A stretch of 22,657 nucleotides of DNA from a virus. Numbering within the stretch: the first letter of the stretch is position 1; every line of letters begins with the position of its first letter. Position numbers and translations under genes: made by a program. The stretch spans positions 1-22,657 of the IMG/VR virus record IMGVR_UViG_3300028844_003251; one strand, 5' to 3'. This document shows positions 2,632-17,699 of the stretch, in pieces. Below the pieces are notes generated by a model, which did not search any database, was not told the DNA's origin, and was given only the letters and a program-made list of their open reading frames with translations.

Positions 2632-3702
2632 ATGAGCGATTTTTTTCGTGGACTAGTTGAAGATATCAAAGATGCAGATACCGTCATTGCAGCAGACGGG
2701 CTAGGAAGTGCTGAGTATACCGGATCAATCGATACCGGTTCTTATATGTTAAATGCTGTCCTGTCTGGATCTATATATGGCGGCGTACCTAATAATAAAA
2801 TTAGTGCCTTTGCTGGTGAGTCAGCTACTGGTAAGACTTTCTTTGTACTAGGTATTATTCAAAAGTTTTTAAGAGATAATAAGGATGCTGGTGTTGTATA
2901 TTATGATACTGAAGCAGCTGTAACTAAAGATATGATGGAATCAAGAGGCATTGATACTAATAGAGTAATCTTAGCTGAACCTGATACTATCCAATCATTT
3001 AGACATCATGCTCTTAGAATGATTGACGCTTATAGTTCTCAACCTATTGATAGACGCCCTCCTATGATGTTCGTACTTGATTCATTAGGTCTACTATCTA
3101 CTACTAAAGAGATGGAAGATACTGCTGAAGGTAAAGAGACAAGGGATATGACTAAGGCTCAGATTATTAAAGCTACTTTTAGAGTACTTACTCTTAAACT
3201 TGCTAAAGTAAAAGTTCCTATGCTAGTTACTAATCATGTTTATGATGTAGTAGGATCTTATGTACCGATGAAAGAGATTGGTGGTGGTAGTGGTCTTAAG
3301 TATGCTGCTTCTACTATTTGTATGCTAGGTAAGAAGAAAGATAAAGAAGGTACTGATGTAGTAGGTAATATTATTAGATGTACTACATTTAAGTCAAGAC
3401 TGTCAAAAGAGAATAAGAAAGTAGAAGTTAAACTTTCCTATGAGACTGGATTAGATAGGTACTTTGGACTCTTAGACTTAGCTGAAAAGTATGGACTAGT
3501 TAAGAAAGTATCTACACGAGTAGAGATGCCTGATGGTTCTAAAGTATATGCTAAAGCAGTATATGCTAATCCAGAAAAGTACTTCACAGAAGAGTTCTTA
3601 GCAAAGCTAGACATAGCAGCTAGAAAAGAATACCAATATGGGAGTGAAGACGATGAAGAACTTGTTTCCAATTCCGATGATGATGGAGCAAACGAATCTT
3701 AA
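2632..3702 (+). CDS. uvsX: UvsX, RecA-like recombinase
   Basis: This is a strand-exchange recombinase of the RecA/UvsX family, used for recombination-dependent replication and repair. It has 356 residues (T4 UvsX 391). Visible are Walker A GESATGKT (residues 62-69), the YYDTE strand with the likely catalytic Glu94, Walker B MFVLDSLG (Asp150), and a Gly-rich DNA-binding loop EIGGGSGLKYA (about 215-225). The C-terminus is acidic (SEDDEELVSNSDDD), as in many recombinases, where it can modulate DNA binding. The start is ATG 2632 with GGAG at 2621-2624. A strong sigma70-like promoter precedes it. The 3' end overlaps the next gene by about 50 bases. Its position next to gp43 and gp41 matches T4-like replication clusters. 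Confidence 0.95.
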   Translation: MSDFFRGLVEDIKDADTVIAADGLGSAEYTGSIDTGSYMLNAVLSGSIYGGVPNNKISAFAGESATGKTFFVLGIIQKFLRDNKDAGVVYYDTEAAVTKDMMESRGIDTNRVILAEPDTIQSFRHHALRMIDAYSSQPIDRRPPMMFVLDSLGLLSTTKEMEDTAEGKETRDMTKAQIIKATFRVLTLKLAKVKVPMLVTNHVYDVVGSYVPMKEIGGGSGLKYAASTICMLGKKKDKEGTDVVGNIIRCTTFKSRLSKENKKVEVKLSYETGLDRYFGLLDLAEKYGLVKKVSTRVEMPDGSKVYAKAVYANPEKYFTEEFLAKLDIAARKEYQYGSEDDEELVSNSDDDGANES

Positions 3703-4237
3703 TATAAAAGAGATTCAAGAAAGCATCCTCACATTACGTAGAAATAAATCACCCGACAAGACTAACTATACATCGTTCTATGATGAAGATGGTTTAGTGG
3801 GTGTTAAACATAAAGAGGATATACTGAATGGCATTACCAAGTTCGCGAAGGGATATGTTGATACTTGTCTTGATCTTGACAAGACTATCGCTTCCAAGAT
3901 TGATACTGACTGCATACAAGCATGGTATAATGTCTACGATGAGGGTATTCACCACTGTTGGCACGACCATGGTAGATCTTTACTTTCGGGTACTCTTTAT
4001 ATCCACACTGATAGTGATTCTAGTTCTTTCTTGATTCGAAGCCCGTTGTACGCTATAATTAAATCATGGGTTGGTGGAGAAGGATTTCTTAATAGATGGG
4101 TACAAGAAGAAGAACTACGACCTGTAAGCGGCGATATTTATATATGGCCTAGTTGGTTAGAGCATAGTGTTCCAGAGCAAAAACCTACTAGTAACCCTAG
4201 AATATCAATCTCATTTAATATATTTGTGAAGCGATGA
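3653..4237 (+). CDS. 2OG-Fe(II) oxygenase, LFPxP / HxH-SG family
   Basis: Predicted 2-oxoglutarate/iron(II)-dependent dioxygenase of the type with an N-terminal LFPxP motif and an SGxxYxH core (PF13759-like by memory). I place the start at ATG 3653, 194 residues, because GGGAG (3640-3644) lies 8 bases upstream and the protein then begins MKNLFPIP, as expected for the family; the ATG at 3638 would add five residues without a ribosome site. Candidate metal ligands are His104/His106 (HDHGRSLLSG) and His171 (WLEHSVP), with Arg183 (NPRISISFN) to bind the 2OG carboxylate. Substrate is unknown. The gene overlaps the uvsX end by 50 bases and the gp41 start by 4 (ATGA), so it is translated with the replication genes, which makes a nucleic acid or replication-protein substrate conceivable (inference). 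Confidence 0.85.
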   Translation: MKNLFPIPMMMEQTNLNIKEIQESILTLRRNKSPDKTNYTSFYDEDGLVGVKHKEDILNGITKFAKGYVDTCLDLDKTIASKIDTDCIQAWYNVYDEGIHHCWHDHGRSLLSGTLYIHTDSDSSSFLIRSPLYAIIKSWVGGEGFLNRWVQEEELRPVSGDIYIWPSWLEHSVPEQKPTSNPRISISFNIFVKR

Positions 4238-5598
4238 TAGAAAAAACTATAATTAGTAATTTAATATTTAATGATGAATATACACGTAAGTGTATTCCTT
4301 TCCTTAAAGCTGAATACTTTAGCGATCTAGTTGAAAAGAAACTATTTCAAGCTATTGCTGAGTATCATGAAAAATATAATTTATGTCCTAGTCAGGATGC
4401 ATTAGCTATTGAAGTATCTAATACAGGCGGTATGTCTGATGAATTAGCTGCACAAGCTGATACTTATATAAAAGAATTAAAGCCTTCAGAAGAAAAAGAT
4501 ACTGAATGGGTAGTAGATAGTACTGAAAAGTTCTGTCAAGAGAAGGCTGTATATAATGCTATTATGGATGGCATACAGATATTAGACGGTCAAGGTAAAG
4601 AAGATAAAGGTGCATTACCTCAGATGTTATCTGATGCTCTTTCTGTATCGTTTGATAATCATATTGGTCATGACTTTATAGAAGATGCTAATGAAAGGTT
4701 TGACTTTTATCAAAAGAAAGAAGTAAAGATACCATTCGATATTGATTATCTTAATCGTATAACTCAAGGTGGCTTAGCTAGAAAGACATTAAATATAGCG
4801 ATGGCTGGTACTGGTGTAGGCAAGTCTCTCTTTATGTGTCACTGTGCAGCTGCTAATCTAATGCATGGACTTAATGTATTATATATTACTATGGAAATGG
4901 CTGAAGAGCGTATAGCAGAGCGTGTTGACGCTAACTTACTTAATACTACTATTGATGAGCTAAAGATGCTACCTAGAGATGCTTATGAGAAAAAAATGGC
5001 TAGGGTATCTAAGAAAACCGATGGTAAGCTTATTGTAAAAGAATATCCTACTGCTGGTGCTCATGCTGGTCACTTTAGACATCTACTTCAAGAATTAAAA
5101 ATTAAAAAGCAATTCCTACCTGATATAATTTATATTGATTATCTTAATATCTGTATGAGTGCAAGAGTAAAAGGTGCAAGTGCTAATTCATATACAATTG
5201 TTAAGTCTATTGCTGAAGAGCTTAGAGGCTTAGCTGTTGAGTTTAATGTACCTATTGTATCTGCTACGCAGGTAACTAGATCTGGATATACATCATCTGA
5301 TGTTGGTTTAGAAGATACTTCTGAATCGTTCGGACTACCTGCTACTGCTGACTTTATGTTTGCTATGATAAGTACTGAAGAGCTAGAAGACTTAGCTCAG
5401 ATATTATTTAAGCAGTTAAAGAATAGATATTCAGACCCTAACTATAATAGACGATTTGTAGTTGGTGTTGATAGAGCGAAAATGAAGCTATATGATGTTG
5501 AGCAGAATGCTCAGGATGACTTAGTTGAAGATACGCCCGTCTTTGATAAAACGGACGCTGGTAAAGGTTTAGTGAGTAAGTTCGACGACTTTGTCTAA
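4234..5598 (+). CDS. 41: DnaB-like replicative DNA helicase (gp41)
   Basis: This is the hexameric 5'-3' helicase that unwinds the replication fork and works with the primase. It has 454 residues (T4 gp41 475). The N-terminal helical domain (about 1-150) is followed by a RecA-fold motor: Walker A AGTGVGKS (191-198), the ITMEMAEERIAER segment (about 218-230) typical of DnaB motif H1a, Walker B DIIYIDYL (Asp302) and the SATQ sensor (Gln346). The tail is acidic (KFDDFV). The start ATG overlaps the preceding stop (ATGA), so translation is coupled; the Shine-Dalgarno is weak. No primase gene (gp61) is visible nearby. The end is followed by a palindrome at 5612-5629. Confidence 0.94.
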   Translation: MIEKTIISNLIFNDEYTRKCIPFLKAEYFSDLVEKKLFQAIAEYHEKYNLCPSQDALAIEVSNTGGMSDELAAQADTYIKELKPSEEKDTEWVVDSTEKFCQEKAVYNAIMDGIQILDGQGKEDKGALPQMLSDALSVSFDNHIGHDFIEDANERFDFYQKKEVKIPFDIDYLNRITQGGLARKTLNIAMAGTGVGKSLFMCHCAAANLMHGLNVLYITMEMAEERIAERVDANLLNTTIDELKMLPRDAYEKKMARVSKKTDGKLIVKEYPTAGAHAGHFRHLLQELKIKKQFLPDIIYIDYLNICMSARVKGASANSYTIVKSIAEELRGLAVEFNVPIVSATQVTRSGYTSSDVGLEDTSESFGLPATADFMFAMISTEELEDLAQILFKQLKNRYSDPNYNRRFVVGVDRAKMKLYDVEQNAQDDLVEDTPVFDKTDAGKGLVSKFDDFV

Positions 5599-5646
5599 CG
5601 TACCTGACCTCATCATTTCATTAAATGATTTCCATAACTCTTTCAT
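5569..5646 (-). CDS. Possible 25-residue reverse-strand microprotein
   Basis: On the reverse strand, an ATG at 5646 is preceded by AGGAG (plus-strand 5653-5657) with 6-base spacing, an excellent ribosome site. The reading frame gives 25 residues (begins MKELWKSFNEMM, ends VVELTH) and runs 30 bases antisense into the end of gp41. It would be the only reverse-strand gene in the window. The upstream sequence is very AT-rich and could hold a promoter, but no clear -35 was found. The ribosome site is the main evidence; it may be a coincidence. Confidence 0.25.
   Translation of the reverse strand: MKELWKSFNEMMRSGTLDKVVELTH
5612..5629 (+). other. AT-rich perfect inverted repeat after gp41
   Basis: A 7-base stem (ATCATTT / AAATGAT) with a 4-base loop (CATT) lies 13 bases after the gp41 stop. 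No T-run follows on either strand, so it is not a standard intrinsic terminator. It could be a 3' stabilising hairpin, a protein-binding site, or simply part of the small reverse-strand reading frame at 5569-5646. Confidence 0.35.
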
Positions 5647-5662
5647 AGTAGGCTCCTGGATA

Positions 5663-5670
5663 TATAAATA
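5663..5670 (+). promoter_or_regulatory. T4 late-type promoter motif TATAAATA
   Basis: An exact TATAAATA, the T4 late -10 element recognised by the phage late sigma factor gp55, lies 38 bases before the RHH gene at 5708 in an intergenic AT-rich stretch. The expected start site near 5677 leaves a leader of about 30 bases. It would drive the RHH, QueC-like and P4H-like genes. Confidence 0.6.
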
Positions 5671-5707
5671 GTATATATAGAATATATATAATAATGAGGA
5701 TTTTGAG

Positions 5708-5875
5708 ATGAGTGAAAAAGTACAGATGTTAGTTAAAGTATGTCCTGAAGTGAAAGAAAACTTTAAGAAAGCTTGCGCACAAAATGATACTTCTGTGTCA
5801 CGTGAGGTTAGACGTTTCATGAAAACATACATAGAGATGACTGAAACAGACCCTGACACTAAGCACGATAGATGA
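5708..5875 (+). CDS. Ribbon-helix-helix (Arc/CopG-type) small protein
   Basis: A 55-residue protein. The ATG at 5708 has GAGG (5696-5699) 8 bases upstream, and the stop TGA overlaps the next ATG (ATGA). The sequence has the RHH pattern: a short beta strand (VQMLVKVCP), helix 1 (EVKENFKKACAQND), a turn with T/S-V-S, and helix 2 (REVRRFMKTYIEM). RHH proteins bind DNA as dimers through the strand and serve as transcriptional repressors or antitoxins. No toxin gene partners it here; the neighbour is a QueC-like enzyme. It may regulate its own cassette or phage/host genes (inference). The fold call rests on the hydrophobic pattern, not a database match. Confidence 0.75.
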   Translation: MSEKVQMLVKVCPEVKENFKKACAQNDTSVSREVRRFMKTYIEMTETDPDTKHDR

Positions 5876-6507
5876 AGTATGATTCTATTGTAGCATTTTC
5901 GGGTGGTGTTGAATCAACAGCGCTAGTTTATTGGCTTAAGTCTCTAAATAAAAATCCTTATTGCTTCCATGTTAAAGCCAATCCAGGCGAAGTTAATACA
6001 ATACAACAAAAAGCAGCTCTTCTAGAAACTGATGTCACAACAGTTATTGTTGACTATAATCCTCCTGAAAAATTATTATTTAATAGGCACGAGTCACGTG
6101 AGCATTATACTAAGCATTTTAATAAGAACGGCTTCCCTCCTATGCAACAAAACTGGGCTACAATTGCTTTCCAAATAGCTATAACAAATGTAATGTCACA
6201 TATTTACTTCGGGCATAACGGAGGCAAATTAACACCAGAGAATACTAACGGTGATAATTTACATCTGTTTGGTGTGAAGCAATATGAAGGTTATATTAAT
6301 TCAGCTGCTCAAATTGGTATTGATATGACCTTTACTGCTCCTTTAATGCATTTAAGTAAACAAGAGCAGTATCAAATGCTTCCTGATAAAATTAAAAAAT
6401 TAATATATGTCTGTGAGAAGGGTGAAGATAAGCATTGTATGAGATGTAAAAAATGCAATGAGTTAAAAGCTATTTGTACTGAGGAACAATTAAAATATTA
6501 TGGTTAA
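5872..6507 (+). CDS. QueC-like PP-loop ATPase (7-deazaguanine synthase family)
   Basis: Predicted ATP-dependent PP-loop enzyme related to QueC, which converts 7-carboxy-7-deazaguanine to preQ0, the precursor of queuosine and of 7-deazaguanine bases in some phage DNAs. It has 211 residues. The PP-loop is SGGVES (residues 10-15), with Glu where QueC usually has Asp (SGGxDS). A C-terminal zinc-type cluster is present: Cys181, Cys189, Cys192 and Cys195 in the C-x7-C-x2-C-x2-C spacing typical of QueC. The LSKQEQY segment before it also fits. No folE, queD, queE or DpdA-like transglycosylase is in the window, so the full pathway cannot be shown. It overlaps the RHH gene (ATGA) and the following oxygenase by 8 bases. 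An alternative is another PP-loop amidotransferase or ligase-type role with a changed substrate. Confidence 0.82.
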   Translation: MKYDSIVAFSGGVESTALVYWLKSLNKNPYCFHVKANPGEVNTIQQKAALLETDVTTVIVDYNPPEKLLFNRHESREHYTKHFNKNGFPPMQQNWATIAFQIAITNVMSHIYFGHNGGKLTPENTNGDNLHLFGVKQYEGYINSAAQIGIDMTFTAPLMHLSKQEQYQMLPDKIKKLIYVCEKGEDKHCMRCKKCNELKAICTEEQLKYYG

Positions 6508-7105
6508 TACTTTTATACAAGTAATACCTGACGCTTTATCAAAAAGTGACTGTGAAGATATTATTAAGGCATTCGAAAATAAGTCAGAGCATTTTACTAT
6601 TGAAACAAAAATAGATGGTATCTATATTGATAATAATGATGAGAGAAATGATATTAGTATGTTCCCTCTTGGCTTTCAATCTATGGAAGCAAGTAATGAT
6701 TTAATATGTGATACAATAAAAAATAATATTCCACTTTGGTGGGAAGGTAATGAAGAGCATTATATGTTCTTAGAGAATATTAAAATACAGAAAGCATCAT
6801 CAGGTGGTGGATTTACTACACAGCATGTTGAGCAAGGTCAGAGCCCAACAACAAACTCACGCTTCATGGTATGGATGATCTATCTTAATGATGTAGAGAG
6901 AGGAGGACGTACTAGCTTTCCCCTACAAGAGATAAGCTTTAAACCTACTGCAGGAACTTTAATGTATTGGCCTGCAGGTTATACTCATCCACATTATGCT
7001 ACAGATGATCTTGAATGTGATAAGTATATTGCAACTGGATGGTTTAGCTACAACAAAGATAGATCTAGACATTTCTTTCATAATAAGTTGCATTCTAGAG
7101 AATAA
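6500..7105 (+). CDS. Prolyl-4-hydroxylase-like 2OG-Fe(II) oxygenase
   Basis: A 201-residue dioxygenase of the P4H-like group common in marine T4-like phages. Metal ligands: His109-x-Glu111 (HVE; many relatives have HxD, so Glu is a variation) and a distal His in YTHPHY (His163 or His165). Lys175 in DKYIATGWFSY matches the 2OG-binding Lys/Arg. The signature MIYLNDVERGGRTSFP (126-141) and GTLMYWPAGYTHPH (152-165) are classic for the family. Known relatives hydroxylate proline or other residues; the phage substrate is unknown. Its start overlaps the end of the QueC-like gene by 8 bases, so the two are probably co-translated. This is the second of three distinct 2OG oxygenases in the window. Confidence 0.9.
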   Translation: MVNTFIQVIPDALSKSDCEDIIKAFENKSEHFTIETKIDGIYIDNNDERNDISMFPLGFQSMEASNDLICDTIKNNIPLWWEGNEEHYMFLENIKIQKASSGGGFTTQHVEQGQSPTTNSRFMVWMIYLNDVERGGRTSFPLQEISFKPTAGTLMYWPAGYTHPHYATDDLECDKYIATGWFSYNKDRSRHFFHNKLHSRE

Positions 7106-7146: not shown

Positions 7147-8760
7147 ATGGATAAATTATATGCGATATTTCTCACCTTACTTTTGGCATCTTGTGGTGGC
7201 GGTGGGACTGGGTCAGTTGTACTTGTACCTGAATCACAATCAACTACTCCACCTGCATCTCCTTCTTATTGGTTATATGGTAAAGCTATAGATGGTTATA
7301 TAGACGGTGCTACTGTATTCATTGACTTTAATTGGAACTTAGTTCAGGACGATGGTGAGCCTACTGCTCTAACTGACTCTGAAGGTACATACTTCTTTAC
7401 TAATGATAACGGTGAGTTTAATAGTATAAATAATATAACAACTTCTTGTGCAAGATCGAGACCAGTTGTTGTAAACGTACCTGTAGGTGCTACAGATACA
7501 ACCCGAGGATATATTGATACAGCTTTTGATATGTATCTTATACCAACAGAGAAGGGTAGTGATGTACTTACTAGTATTCCTTCTCGAGGAAACATATCAC
7601 CCTTCACTGGAATATTCCTGGAGTATATAAATGAAGCGAAACAAAATTATAATAATGTCTCGATCAGTGTGGCGCAAGGTTGTGGAGATGATGCCAACAA
7701 CATCGCAGACTTTGTCTTTTCTAAAACAGATGATTTCGAGCTTGACCTCTATAACAATTATGGTATTACTTTCGATGACCTTTATTCTGATTTCATTGCT
7801 AGTGATAATGCTGAATGGATTAGCCGCGCTGAAACTATCGTTGACTTCCTCCAACTCTTAGACCCTTTACGAACTGACCTTGATACTGTACTTGAGAATA
7901 TGGTTGGTGAAGCTATGCCAAGTTCATTATATATCTCAGATACTGCAATAGGTCAGGTTATAGATAACGCGGAGCTAAACGCGCTGGCCTTTAATATGCG
8001 CGCTCACTTCACAGGAGCAGATATAGGTGGATGGTCTAATTATTTCTTCCTTGAGACGTCTGAAACTACTTTAAATAGAAGTGATGGTTCTTTAGGTAGT
8101 GGTTATGCACCTACTTACGCTAACTTAAAACAGCATGCTACTAAGTATAGAGCTGATATTGGTGGTGTTAGTACATCAGCGGTTATTGACTATAACACAA
8201 GCTATACTATAAGAGAAGAAATTATAGATGGTATATGTGCTAATGACTATACTCTTAAATATATGAAAGAAGATGAAACTTATATAACTGAGTATCATAT
8301 ATCACATCATAATGGCCTTAATTATGAAGCCTATTGTTCTATTGCTGATCTTCCTACTAACGTAACCGTAGAATATACACAAAAGAAAGATAATAGAAAC
8401 GATCACTATAGCTTTAGTATTAGTGTAGACCCCAGTGTCTCCCAAATTGTCCCTAACGTACCCGTTACTTATTCGGACATTGATTACAATGGTACACTTG
8501 GTACAATTCAAGGCATAGTGCTTACATACGATGAGGCTGATAGCTATCAATCAATATTACAATCAAATGAATTTATTGCTCTTGGACGTACATTAATAGA
8601 TGGAGTTAATATTATTGAGAAAGCATACTTTGTGTATCCTACTTATACGCAATGTATACATAGAACATTTGATGGAACTGACTGGGTCACAGTTGACTCA
8701 GGGACTACGAACGCCTACAATAACTGTAGAGAGTTTATAACTAATTTTTACGGAGAATAA
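7147..8760 (+). CDS. Large predicted surface lipoprotein
   Basis: A 537-residue protein with a type II signal peptide: residues 1-15 end in the lipobox LLAS followed by Cys16, then GGGG. It should be lipidated and anchored in the host envelope. Residues 17-40 form a Ser/Thr/Pro linker. Residues 42-90 have a beta-sandwich-like segment (GKAIDGYIDGATVFIDFNWN, then DDGEP and a GTYFF strand) of the type seen in secreted marine bacterial proteins, with a DxNxN..DDGE calcium-loop look (Asp60, Asn62, Asn64, Asp68, Asp69, Glu71). The rest has no motif I recognise and few cysteines. The Shine-Dalgarno is weak (TGAG region). Phage lipoproteins are known to block superinfection (for example T5 Llp), but this one is far larger, so a role in exclusion or surface change is inference. 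It could also be acquired from the host. Confidence 0.8.
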   Translation: MDKLYAIFLTLLLASCGGGGTGSVVLVPESQSTTPPASPSYWLYGKAIDGYIDGATVFIDFNWNLVQDDGEPTALTDSEGTYFFTNDNGEFNSINNITTSCARSRPVVVNVPVGATDTTRGYIDTAFDMYLIPTEKGSDVLTSIPSRGNISPFTGIFLEYINEAKQNYNNVSISVAQGCGDDANNIADFVFSKTDDFELDLYNNYGITFDDLYSDFIASDNAEWISRAETIVDFLQLLDPLRTDLDTVLENMVGEAMPSSLYISDTAIGQVIDNAELNALAFNMRAHFTGADIGGWSNYFFLETSETTLNRSDGSLGSGYAPTYANLKQHATKYRADIGGVSTSAVIDYNTSYTIREEIIDGICANDYTLKYMKEDETYITEYHISHHNGLNYEAYCSIADLPTNVTVEYTQKKDNRNDHYSFSISVDPSVSQIVPNVPVTYSDIDYNGTLGTIQGIVLTYDEADSYQSILQSNEFIALGRTLIDGVNIIEKAYFVYPTYTQCIHRTFDGTDWVTVDSGTTNAYNNCREFITNFYGE

Positions 8761-16213: not shown

Positions 16214-16975
16214 ATGGCCATGTCCGATATTAAAACAAATAGAAGAGGAAATGTGCAGTTAGGTAAGACAGTAATGCCTGTTACCCTATTCATAGGGCAA
16301 GTAATAGCTATGCTATCTATTATACCTATGGCTATGTATGCCAGCTTATGGCAGTGGGGTTTATGTATACTAATGTACCAACTCATTGTTACAATTGGTA
16401 TCAGCGTGGGCTATCATAGGTATTTCTCACATAGAATGTTTAAATGCCCTGTTTGGTTCGAATACGTTATGTTATTCTTTGCAAATATAATGATGGTTGG
16501 ACCAGCAACGTTATGGGTAGCTAATCATAGAGAGCATCATAAGTACACTGATACAGATAAAGACCCGCATTCACCAGCGCATAAAGGATATCTTTATGCC
16601 CATTTTTTACAAGTATTTACATCTCCTAAGATTAAGTTTATGACTGATCTCCTGAGAGACAACAAATTTAAATTACAGCATAAGTATTTCTGGGAAATTA
16701 ATATAGTATGGATGCTATTATTATTAGCCATTGATCCATTTGCAGTTATATATCTATGGCTAGCCCCAGCAGGTATATCTAAAATATTAGGATCGCTAGT
16801 ATACTCTTATTCACATAGAGGAGGCAAGCCTCATTCTGATGTATGGGTTGGGTTAGTATCAGGCGGAGAAGGTTTTCATGAACCTCATCACGATGCAAAT
16901 AAAAGATCATATAGGTGGCATAAATATGATATCGGAGGCTTCTTTATAGAAAGAGCATTTAATGGAAAAGCTTAA
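16214..16975 (+). CDS. Membrane fatty-acid (acyl-CoA/acyl-lipid) desaturase
   Basis: A di-iron desaturase of the delta-9 type, expected to introduce a cis double bond into acyl chains in the membrane using O2 and electrons. It has 253 residues. All three histidine boxes are present: H68RYFSH73 (HX4H), H105REHH109 (HX2HH) and H222EPHH226 (HX2HH); His201 in SYSHRGG matches the extra ligand. Hydrophobic segments at about 23-43, 48-66, 83-100, 162-181 and 183-198 give the usual four-helix membrane layout. It looks intact. The start is uncertain: ATG 16214, ATG 16220 and GTG 16253 all have weak ribosome sites. It overlaps the next gene by 14 bases. The electron donor is probably the host's. As a host-derived metabolic gene, it would alter membrane fluidity during infection. 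Confidence 0.92.
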   Translation: MAMSDIKTNRRGNVQLGKTVMPVTLFIGQVIAMLSIIPMAMYASLWQWGLCILMYQLIVTIGISVGYHRYFSHRMFKCPVWFEYVMLFFANIMMVGPATLWVANHREHHKYTDTDKDPHSPAHKGYLYAHFLQVFTSPKIKFMTDLLRDNKFKLQHKYFWEINIVWMLLLLAIDPFAVIYLWLAPAGISKILGSLVYSYSHRGGKPHSDVWVGLVSGGEGFHEPHHDANKRSYRWHKYDIGGFFIERAFNGKA

Positions 16976-17699
16976 ATACAAAAAGTTTAATTATCCTCTC
17001 TGTGCTGAGATACCTCAGCTTAAACCAGATATGGAACTTATAACTCGTTTTATGAATGAGAATAATGATCTATGGCTTGATAACTTTACAGCTCATCCTG
17101 GTATTACATTATCTAATGCACAAGTAGCTGTTGATACATTTCACTTAATAGATCATATAGCATTAACAGGTCCAACTCAACCACAAGTAATTAACTCACA
17201 GCTAGATAGTTTATCAGATATACCAGAAGATGCTGAAGCTAGATCTAAATTAACATCTGATCTAGGTAACGTAATAAAGACAAAAGATAAACTATCAGGT
17301 AAAGCTGGGCATTTATTAAATGAATATAATTGGGGTGAACCTGCTGAGTTTTATAATAATTCAGAGTTACATAACCATATAACAGACTTATTTGAAGCAC
17401 CAGTAATAAGAGTAAGATATTCTAAGATGCAACCAGGTGCACAAATAACACCTCATATAGATTATAATACAACATATGCTATTAGATTTATTATTCCTAT
17501 TGATGGCAATGAGGGTGTAGAGAACAAATTTTGGTTAAAGGGAGAAGAGAAAACCTTTAATCTCGAACACGGTAAAGTATATTTCTTAAATATAGGATAT
17601 ACACATGCTGTTTATCATAAAGGATCAAGTGAAAGACGTTATCTCATTGGGTCTCTTGGCGGGCAACAGGATATTGAAAGTATTCGTTATGATAAATAG
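16962..17699 (+). CDS. Aspartyl/asparaginyl beta-hydroxylase-like 2OG-Fe(II) oxygenase
   Basis: A 245-residue dioxygenase whose C-terminal half carries the AspH-type jelly roll: H165-I-D167 (ITPHIDYNTTYAIRFIIPI), a distal His215 (GYTHAVYHKGSS) and Arg225/Arg226 (ERRYLIGSL) for the 2OG carboxylate. The ligand set is complete, so it is probably active. The N-terminal half (1-145) has no recognised domain. The start ATG lies inside the last codons of the desaturase gene, so the two are co-translated, hinting at a shared pathway (lipid or surface modification), though the partner protein or substrate is unknown. It is the third and most distinct 2OG oxygenase here. Its stop overlaps a GATAAATA late-like motif. 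Confidence 0.88.
   Translation: MEKLKYKKFNYPLCAEIPQLKPDMELITRFMNENNDLWLDNFTAHPGITLSNAQVAVDTFHLIDHIALTGPTQPQVINSQLDSLSDIPEDAEARSKLTSDLGNVIKTKDKLSGKAGHLLNEYNWGEPAEFYNNSELHNHITDLFEAPVIRVRYSKMQPGAQITPHIDYNTTYAIRFIIPIDGNEGVENKFWLKGEEKTFNLEHGKVYFLNIGYTHAVYHKGSSERRYLIGSLGGQQDIESIRYDK

Follow-up and report, generated by a model that had tools for sequence, protein, structure and literature searches.

The QueC superfamily and its repurposing are already known. Mutagenesis of QueC from E. coli identified Tyr35, Arg99 and Tyr131 as essential (PMC13329287), and the Asp of the YPDC motif, which is common to QueC, reads the guanine edge in Cap9 (PMC13279940). In anti-phage immunity, Cap9 has been shown, and QatC has been proposed, to modify proteins. 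For phages, it has been cautioned that QueC genes occurring as singletons may encode other N-type ATP pyrophosphatases (Hutinet 2019; PMC6884629). A phage clade characterized by the loop sequence SGGVES, and its coexistence with canonical QueC, are not described in the open-licence literature that we examined.

The DNA studied here, referred to as the window, spans 22,657 bases and makes up an entire IMG/VR record. It stems from a marine T4-like phage, an assignment based on genes for a DNA polymerase, a UvsX/RecA-like protein and a DnaB-type helicase; by helicase, the nearest cultured phage is Methylophilales phage Melnitz (61%). The original prediction of three overlapping genes behind a late-type motif is borne out in all its elements. 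On the plus strand, the T4-type late promoter-like motif TATAAATA (5663–5670) precedes the genes for an Arc-like ribbon-helix-helix (RHH) protein of 55 residues with the signature NDTSVSREVRRFMK (5708–5875), a 211-residue PP-loop ATP pyrophosphatase that belongs to the SGGVES clade of the QueC superfamily (5872–6507) and a prolyl-4-hydroxylase-like 2OG-Fe(II) oxygenase of 201 residues (6500–7105). The first two genes overlap by four bases (ATGA) and the last two by eight, and the QueC-like gene has RHH, helicase and 2OG genes as its neighbors. Divergent from the RHH gene and antisense to the 3' end of the helicase gene lies a conserved micro-ORF for 25 residues, MKELWKSFNEMMRSGTLDKVVELTH (5569–5646, minus strand), with AGGAG and a good ribosome-binding site; the family comprises 22–25 residues with an x-KLMKSGRLDKV-like sequence, and homologs are present in L003, L005, L092, L093, L095–L098 and, by eye, L006. 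Elsewhere, the window encodes a putative lipoprotein of 537 residues with an LLASC lipobox (7147–8760; 82% conserved in relatives, no family match), an 848-residue protein whose N-terminal domain is cytidylyltransferase-like (PF01467; 11332–13878) and a fatty acid desaturase (PF00487, 44 bits; 16214–16975).

The three genes recur in a nearly identical contig (L002) and in L003 and L004, which share 68% identity with the window in the QueC-like protein and 58–60% in the 2OG protein. In more distant loci (L005, L006 and L092–L098), RHH and QueC-like genes overlap by 8–11 bases, and the identity of the QueC-like proteins is just 32–36%, compared with 63–74% for the RHH proteins, a range that includes L003. 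An overlap of 4–11 nt between RHH and QueC-like genes is found in all 12 loci that have the RHH gene, and the QueC-like copies in L088 and L089 have no adjoining RHH gene. Within the L006 contig, the pair is followed by unrelated ORFs and not by a 2OG gene; the 2OG ortholog is located one gene further downstream in L088 and about four genes further in L092–L094, directly before a shared downstream block. Because of this absence and these displacements, the 2OG gene has to be counted as an independent positional neighbor and not as an obligate partner; judged by gene order, the conserved unit is the RHH and QueC-like pair in 12 loci. A single modification cassette made up of all three genes, as originally envisaged, is therefore not supported and was rejected.

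The third gene product is predicted to be a 2OG oxygenase by its match to PF13640 (E 2.9e-8). It is an ordinary member of the prolyl-4-hydroxylase-type oxygenases of T4-like phages (phrog_61) and is 33% identical to the cyanophage copies; its metal triad reads HxE...H instead of the usual HxD...H. HxE is found in eight of eight orthologs, and comparison with the L003 ortholog indicates purifying selection (dN/dS 0.24). Three genes of the 2OG/hydroxylase type are located within 14 kb of the window: 2OG-FeII_Oxy_5 (3638–4237), the prolyl-4-hydroxylase-like gene (6500–7105) and Asp_Arg_Hydrox (16962–17699).

The RHH protein matches several Arc-like PHROGs and scores slightly below the cut-off for Pfam RHH_9 (E 1e-4, 22.4 versus 23.4 bits). 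In the AT-rich window, TATAAATA occurs five times against 5.7 occurrences expected by chance. The copy at 5663–5670 gains meaning because its position before the RHH start recurs: in 10 of 12 orthologous loci the motif is found 43–45 bases upstream of the RHH gene, inside a conserved AT block. The AT tandem block TATATAAATAGTATATATAGAATATATATA (5660–5693), a candidate RHH operator conserved in 12 loci, is placed between the motif and the ribosome-binding site. The AT-rich late-type promoter probably drives transcription of the RHH and QueC-like genes, which would form a translationally coupled two-gene unit expressed late, and the RHH protein may control its own promoter.

The window PP-loop protein is a member of the QueC superfamily. 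Both the SGGVES loop and the QueC-type cysteine spacing named in the original prediction are present, the latter as C-x7-C-x2-C-x2-C with Cys181, Cys189, Cys192 and Cys195 as zinc-type ligands. The match to PF06508 (E 2.8e-8, 34 bits) exceeds the curated cut-off of 22 bits, and the score against the equivalog model TIGR00364 (33.8 bits) is far below the required 150.3. The AlphaFold model (pLDDT 90.8) has its best PDB match in QueC (3bl5, E 7e-8, TM 0.66 by target), followed by QueC 2pg3 and Cap9 (9nto, E 2e-6). A canonical QueC from the related phage G008, used as a control, fits 3bl5 at TM 0.85 by target although its own model reaches a pLDDT of 74.8 only. A profile built from 25 members of the SGGVES clade matches B. 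subtilis QueC over its full length (E 5e-14), and the QueC-like gene of the window is under purifying selection when compared with the 68% identical gene of L003 (dN/dS 0.21).

Residues that characterize canonical QueC are lost throughout the clade. SGGVES is present in 25 of 25 aligned members and SGGxDS in none, a count that partly reflects collection of most members via the pattern SGGVE; a scan with a C-terminal pattern that is independent of SGGVE recovered the known SGGVES loci plus one contig ending before that motif, and did not reveal an SGGxDS variant among close relatives. Neither VPxRN nor YxQxHxxE occurs in any of the 25 proteins, and the tyrosine of YPDC is not conserved; only the Asp is kept (D128, 24/25), which aligns with the Asp of YPDC in the profile alignment. 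W95 (24/25), K163 (25/25), Q166 (25/25) and the four zinc cysteines (24/25) are conserved as well. In the canonical QueC proteins of relatives, by comparison, SGGxDS, VPxRN and YxQ..E are all present in nine of nine cases. The clade profile assigns 185–264 bits to members and 15–25 bits to canonical QueC, and in the phylogenetic tree a single branch, supported at 100/100, divides the two groups. The SGGVES proteins form a separate phage clade and are probably divergent paralogs of QueC. A bacterial origin found no support: 84,980 species genomes were scanned twice with short patterns from T4-like members, and no relative was confirmed. A tblastn search with the window protein against 50,697 phage records (E 1e-3) did not return a match, and searches with five family members (E 1e-3 or 1e-2) did not yield homologs in cultured phages except via L119. 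The best matches of the latter are phage proteins annotated as QueC (by annotation, not motifs) and two fecal records. One of these, L258 (MT836583), is labelled Bacteriophage sp.; it contains a canonical QueC gene adjoining a QueF-like ORF, as well as a TonB-receptor-like ORF, and is probably bacterial DNA.

According to the original prediction, the genes for 7-deazaguanine synthesis and insertion that are missing next to the QueC-like gene would have to be located elsewhere in the phage or be provided by the host. Such genes are indeed present in close relatives and link the lineage to 7-deazaguanine; they are not found in the window record itself. G008, whose polymerase is 84% identical to that of the window, encodes a canonical QueC (165 bits) besides the SGGVES protein on the same contig, together with QueD, a QueE-like protein, QueF, a GATase_6-like (Gat-like) protein below the cut-off and a DpdA homolog. 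The latter is 54% identical to a protein of Flavobacterium phage immuto that is annotated as a DNA guanine transglycosylase, and it shares 42–44% identity with proteins from the Campylobacter phages CP220 and CPt10, in which dG is reported to be wholly replaced by dADG (PMC8306585). On one contig, G010 has an SGGVES gene together with a canonical QueC that is represented by its C-terminal part, and canonical QueC and Gat genes occur in the same order in L161, L169–L173, L205 and L206. In L161, a gene for a Vut_1-family transporter (PF02592; 5413–6006), possibly for a queuosine precursor, is located between queE and queD. Neither QueC nor QueD was found in Melnitz. The contigs nearest to the window stop short of the pathway region; the L003 record ends in a peroxiredoxin gene, about 3 kb from the position of canonical QueC in G008. 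As relatives carry the pathway just beyond these contig ends, the window phage itself probably has it, a conclusion drawn by phylogenetic bracketing. The lineage probably modifies its DNA with 7-deazaguanine and, to go by its gene content, forms its own preQ0 via the separate canonical QueC.

Given that true QueC and the whole pathway are present in close relatives, the window protein is probably a repurposed sister enzyme. The coexistence of canonical QueC in G008 and G010 and the missing catalytic signature argue against the original view of a QueC that feeds DNA modification, and the window protein is very probably not the preQ0 synthase of its lineage. Our main reading, to which we assign a probability of about 0.5, is that the unit encodes an RHH-controlled, repurposed QueC-fold ATP-dependent ligase that is comparable to Cap9 and QatC and does not synthesize preQ0. 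The protein has lost the Tyr, Arg and Gln/His of the preQ0-synthesis signature but retains the zinc knuckle, the guanine-edge Asp and the fold of an ATP pyrophosphatase. It would most likely adenylate a carboxylate, perhaps that of a 7-deazaguanine or a guanine-like compound, before joining it to an amine, as Cap9 does with proteins and QatC is proposed to do. By analogy with these enzymes, a deazaguanine-type substrate is possible, if doubtful. We consider it quite unlikely, and put it forward as speculation, that the ligase couples an acid of the 7-deazaguanine or guanine-like type to protein or nucleic acid late in infection. It would then be a viral counterpart of CBASS/Qat deazaguanylation, possibly influencing or countering host immunity, and would operate in phages whose own DNA also carries 7-deazaguanine.

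An enzyme of another PP-loop kind without a connection to deazaguanine, e.g., one that thiolates or amidates tRNA or nucleotides, appears unlikely. The caution about phage QueC singletons (Hutinet 2019; PMC6884629) speaks for it, as do the fold matches of the window protein, which include YcfA, TtuA and TrmU, the matches of some SGGVES members to ATP_bind_3 and tRNA_Me_trans, and the location of the majority of members away from deazaguanine genes. In both fold and profile comparisons, however, QueC and Cap9 are clearly closest, and the QueC-type zinc knuckle is present in 24 of 25 members. A working 7-deazaguanine enzyme is also unlikely; in this reading, a diverged QueC or an enzyme that amidates CDG would supply the lineage's DNA modification or make it more diverse. 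Such a role would agree with the superfamily, with the retained base-recognition Asp and with the pathway in relatives. It would also agree with the SGGVES member of G031 (L120, 5001–5561), which lacks the zinc cysteines and is encoded between peptide deformylase and a flavodoxin–QueE–2OG–QueD–FolE2 cluster on a 15-kb contig that also carries a weak DpdA-like homolog and on which canonical QueC was not found. Some SGGVES members may therefore serve the deazaguanine pathway itself. Against this stand the loss of residues essential for preQ0 synthesis, the canonical QueC besides it in G008 and G010, and members in records of 114–148 kb (G016, G032 and G035) in which neither QueD, TGT nor canonical QueC was detected and the only QueE-like match is marginal (G016, E 1e-3). 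A role in counter-defense, in which the protein would mimic QueC and sequester either CDG or the partner proteins of the host's Cap9 (type IV CBASS) or QatBC, would fit the Cap9 fold similarity, the replacement of D by E in the ATP loop and the nature of the gene, small, accessory and preceded by a late-type motif, but is very unlikely, as the strongly conserved active-site positions suggest catalysis rather than a decoy, a host link is lacking and positive selection on the whole gene is not seen (dN/dS 0.21).

A conserved QueC-fold branch besides true QueC in the same phage genome suggests that phages have repurposed this scaffold, too. Phage QueC annotations cannot be read as preQ0 synthesis, and the relatives of the window point to a marine T4-like phage lineage with a probable full pathway for 7-deazaguanine DNA modification.

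In comparison with described proteins, QatC has the same fold with a remodelled substrate site; it is extended at both termini (about 400 residues) and keeps SGGxDS, whereas the window protein has 211 residues and SGGVES and is not matched by the PADLOC QatC model. qatA, qatB and qatD are not among the identified genes around the QueC-like gene, and a CD-NTase gene was not seen near it. Neither motifs nor neighbors thus support membership in QatC or Cap9. RHH and 2OG proteins were also considered as QatB-like substrates with N-terminal glycine and rejected, since their N termini read MSEK/MDEK and MVNT/MSKN. Like the phage singletons of Hutinet 2019, the window carries a lone QueC-like PP-loop gene. 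The PP-loop protein of Mycobacterium phage Muddy (L259) has SGGIDS and shares a cysteine-rich tail with the window protein; a Muddy ATPase among the near fold matches may be this same protein. Canonical QueC (PF06508 cluster 1 in PMC13329287) has the PP-loop fold, a length of about 211–220 residues, the PL..TK motif, the Asp of the YPDC region and the C-terminal C-xn-C-x2-C-x2-C arrangement in common with the window protein, which differs in SGGVES instead of SGGxDS, in the lack of YxQxHxxE, VPxRN and the YPDC Tyr and in a zinc motif that is one residue shorter, C(x)7CxxCxxC instead of C(x)8CxxCxxC. Cap9, the type IV CBASS deazaguanylase, keeps SGGxDS, Y/FxQ and YxDC, all absent from the window protein; it is nevertheless the second nearest solved fold, likewise a small QueC-fold protein, and its zinc motif CE(x)6CxxCxxC resembles that of the window protein, in which CE(x)6 is followed by one additional residue and then CxxCxxC.
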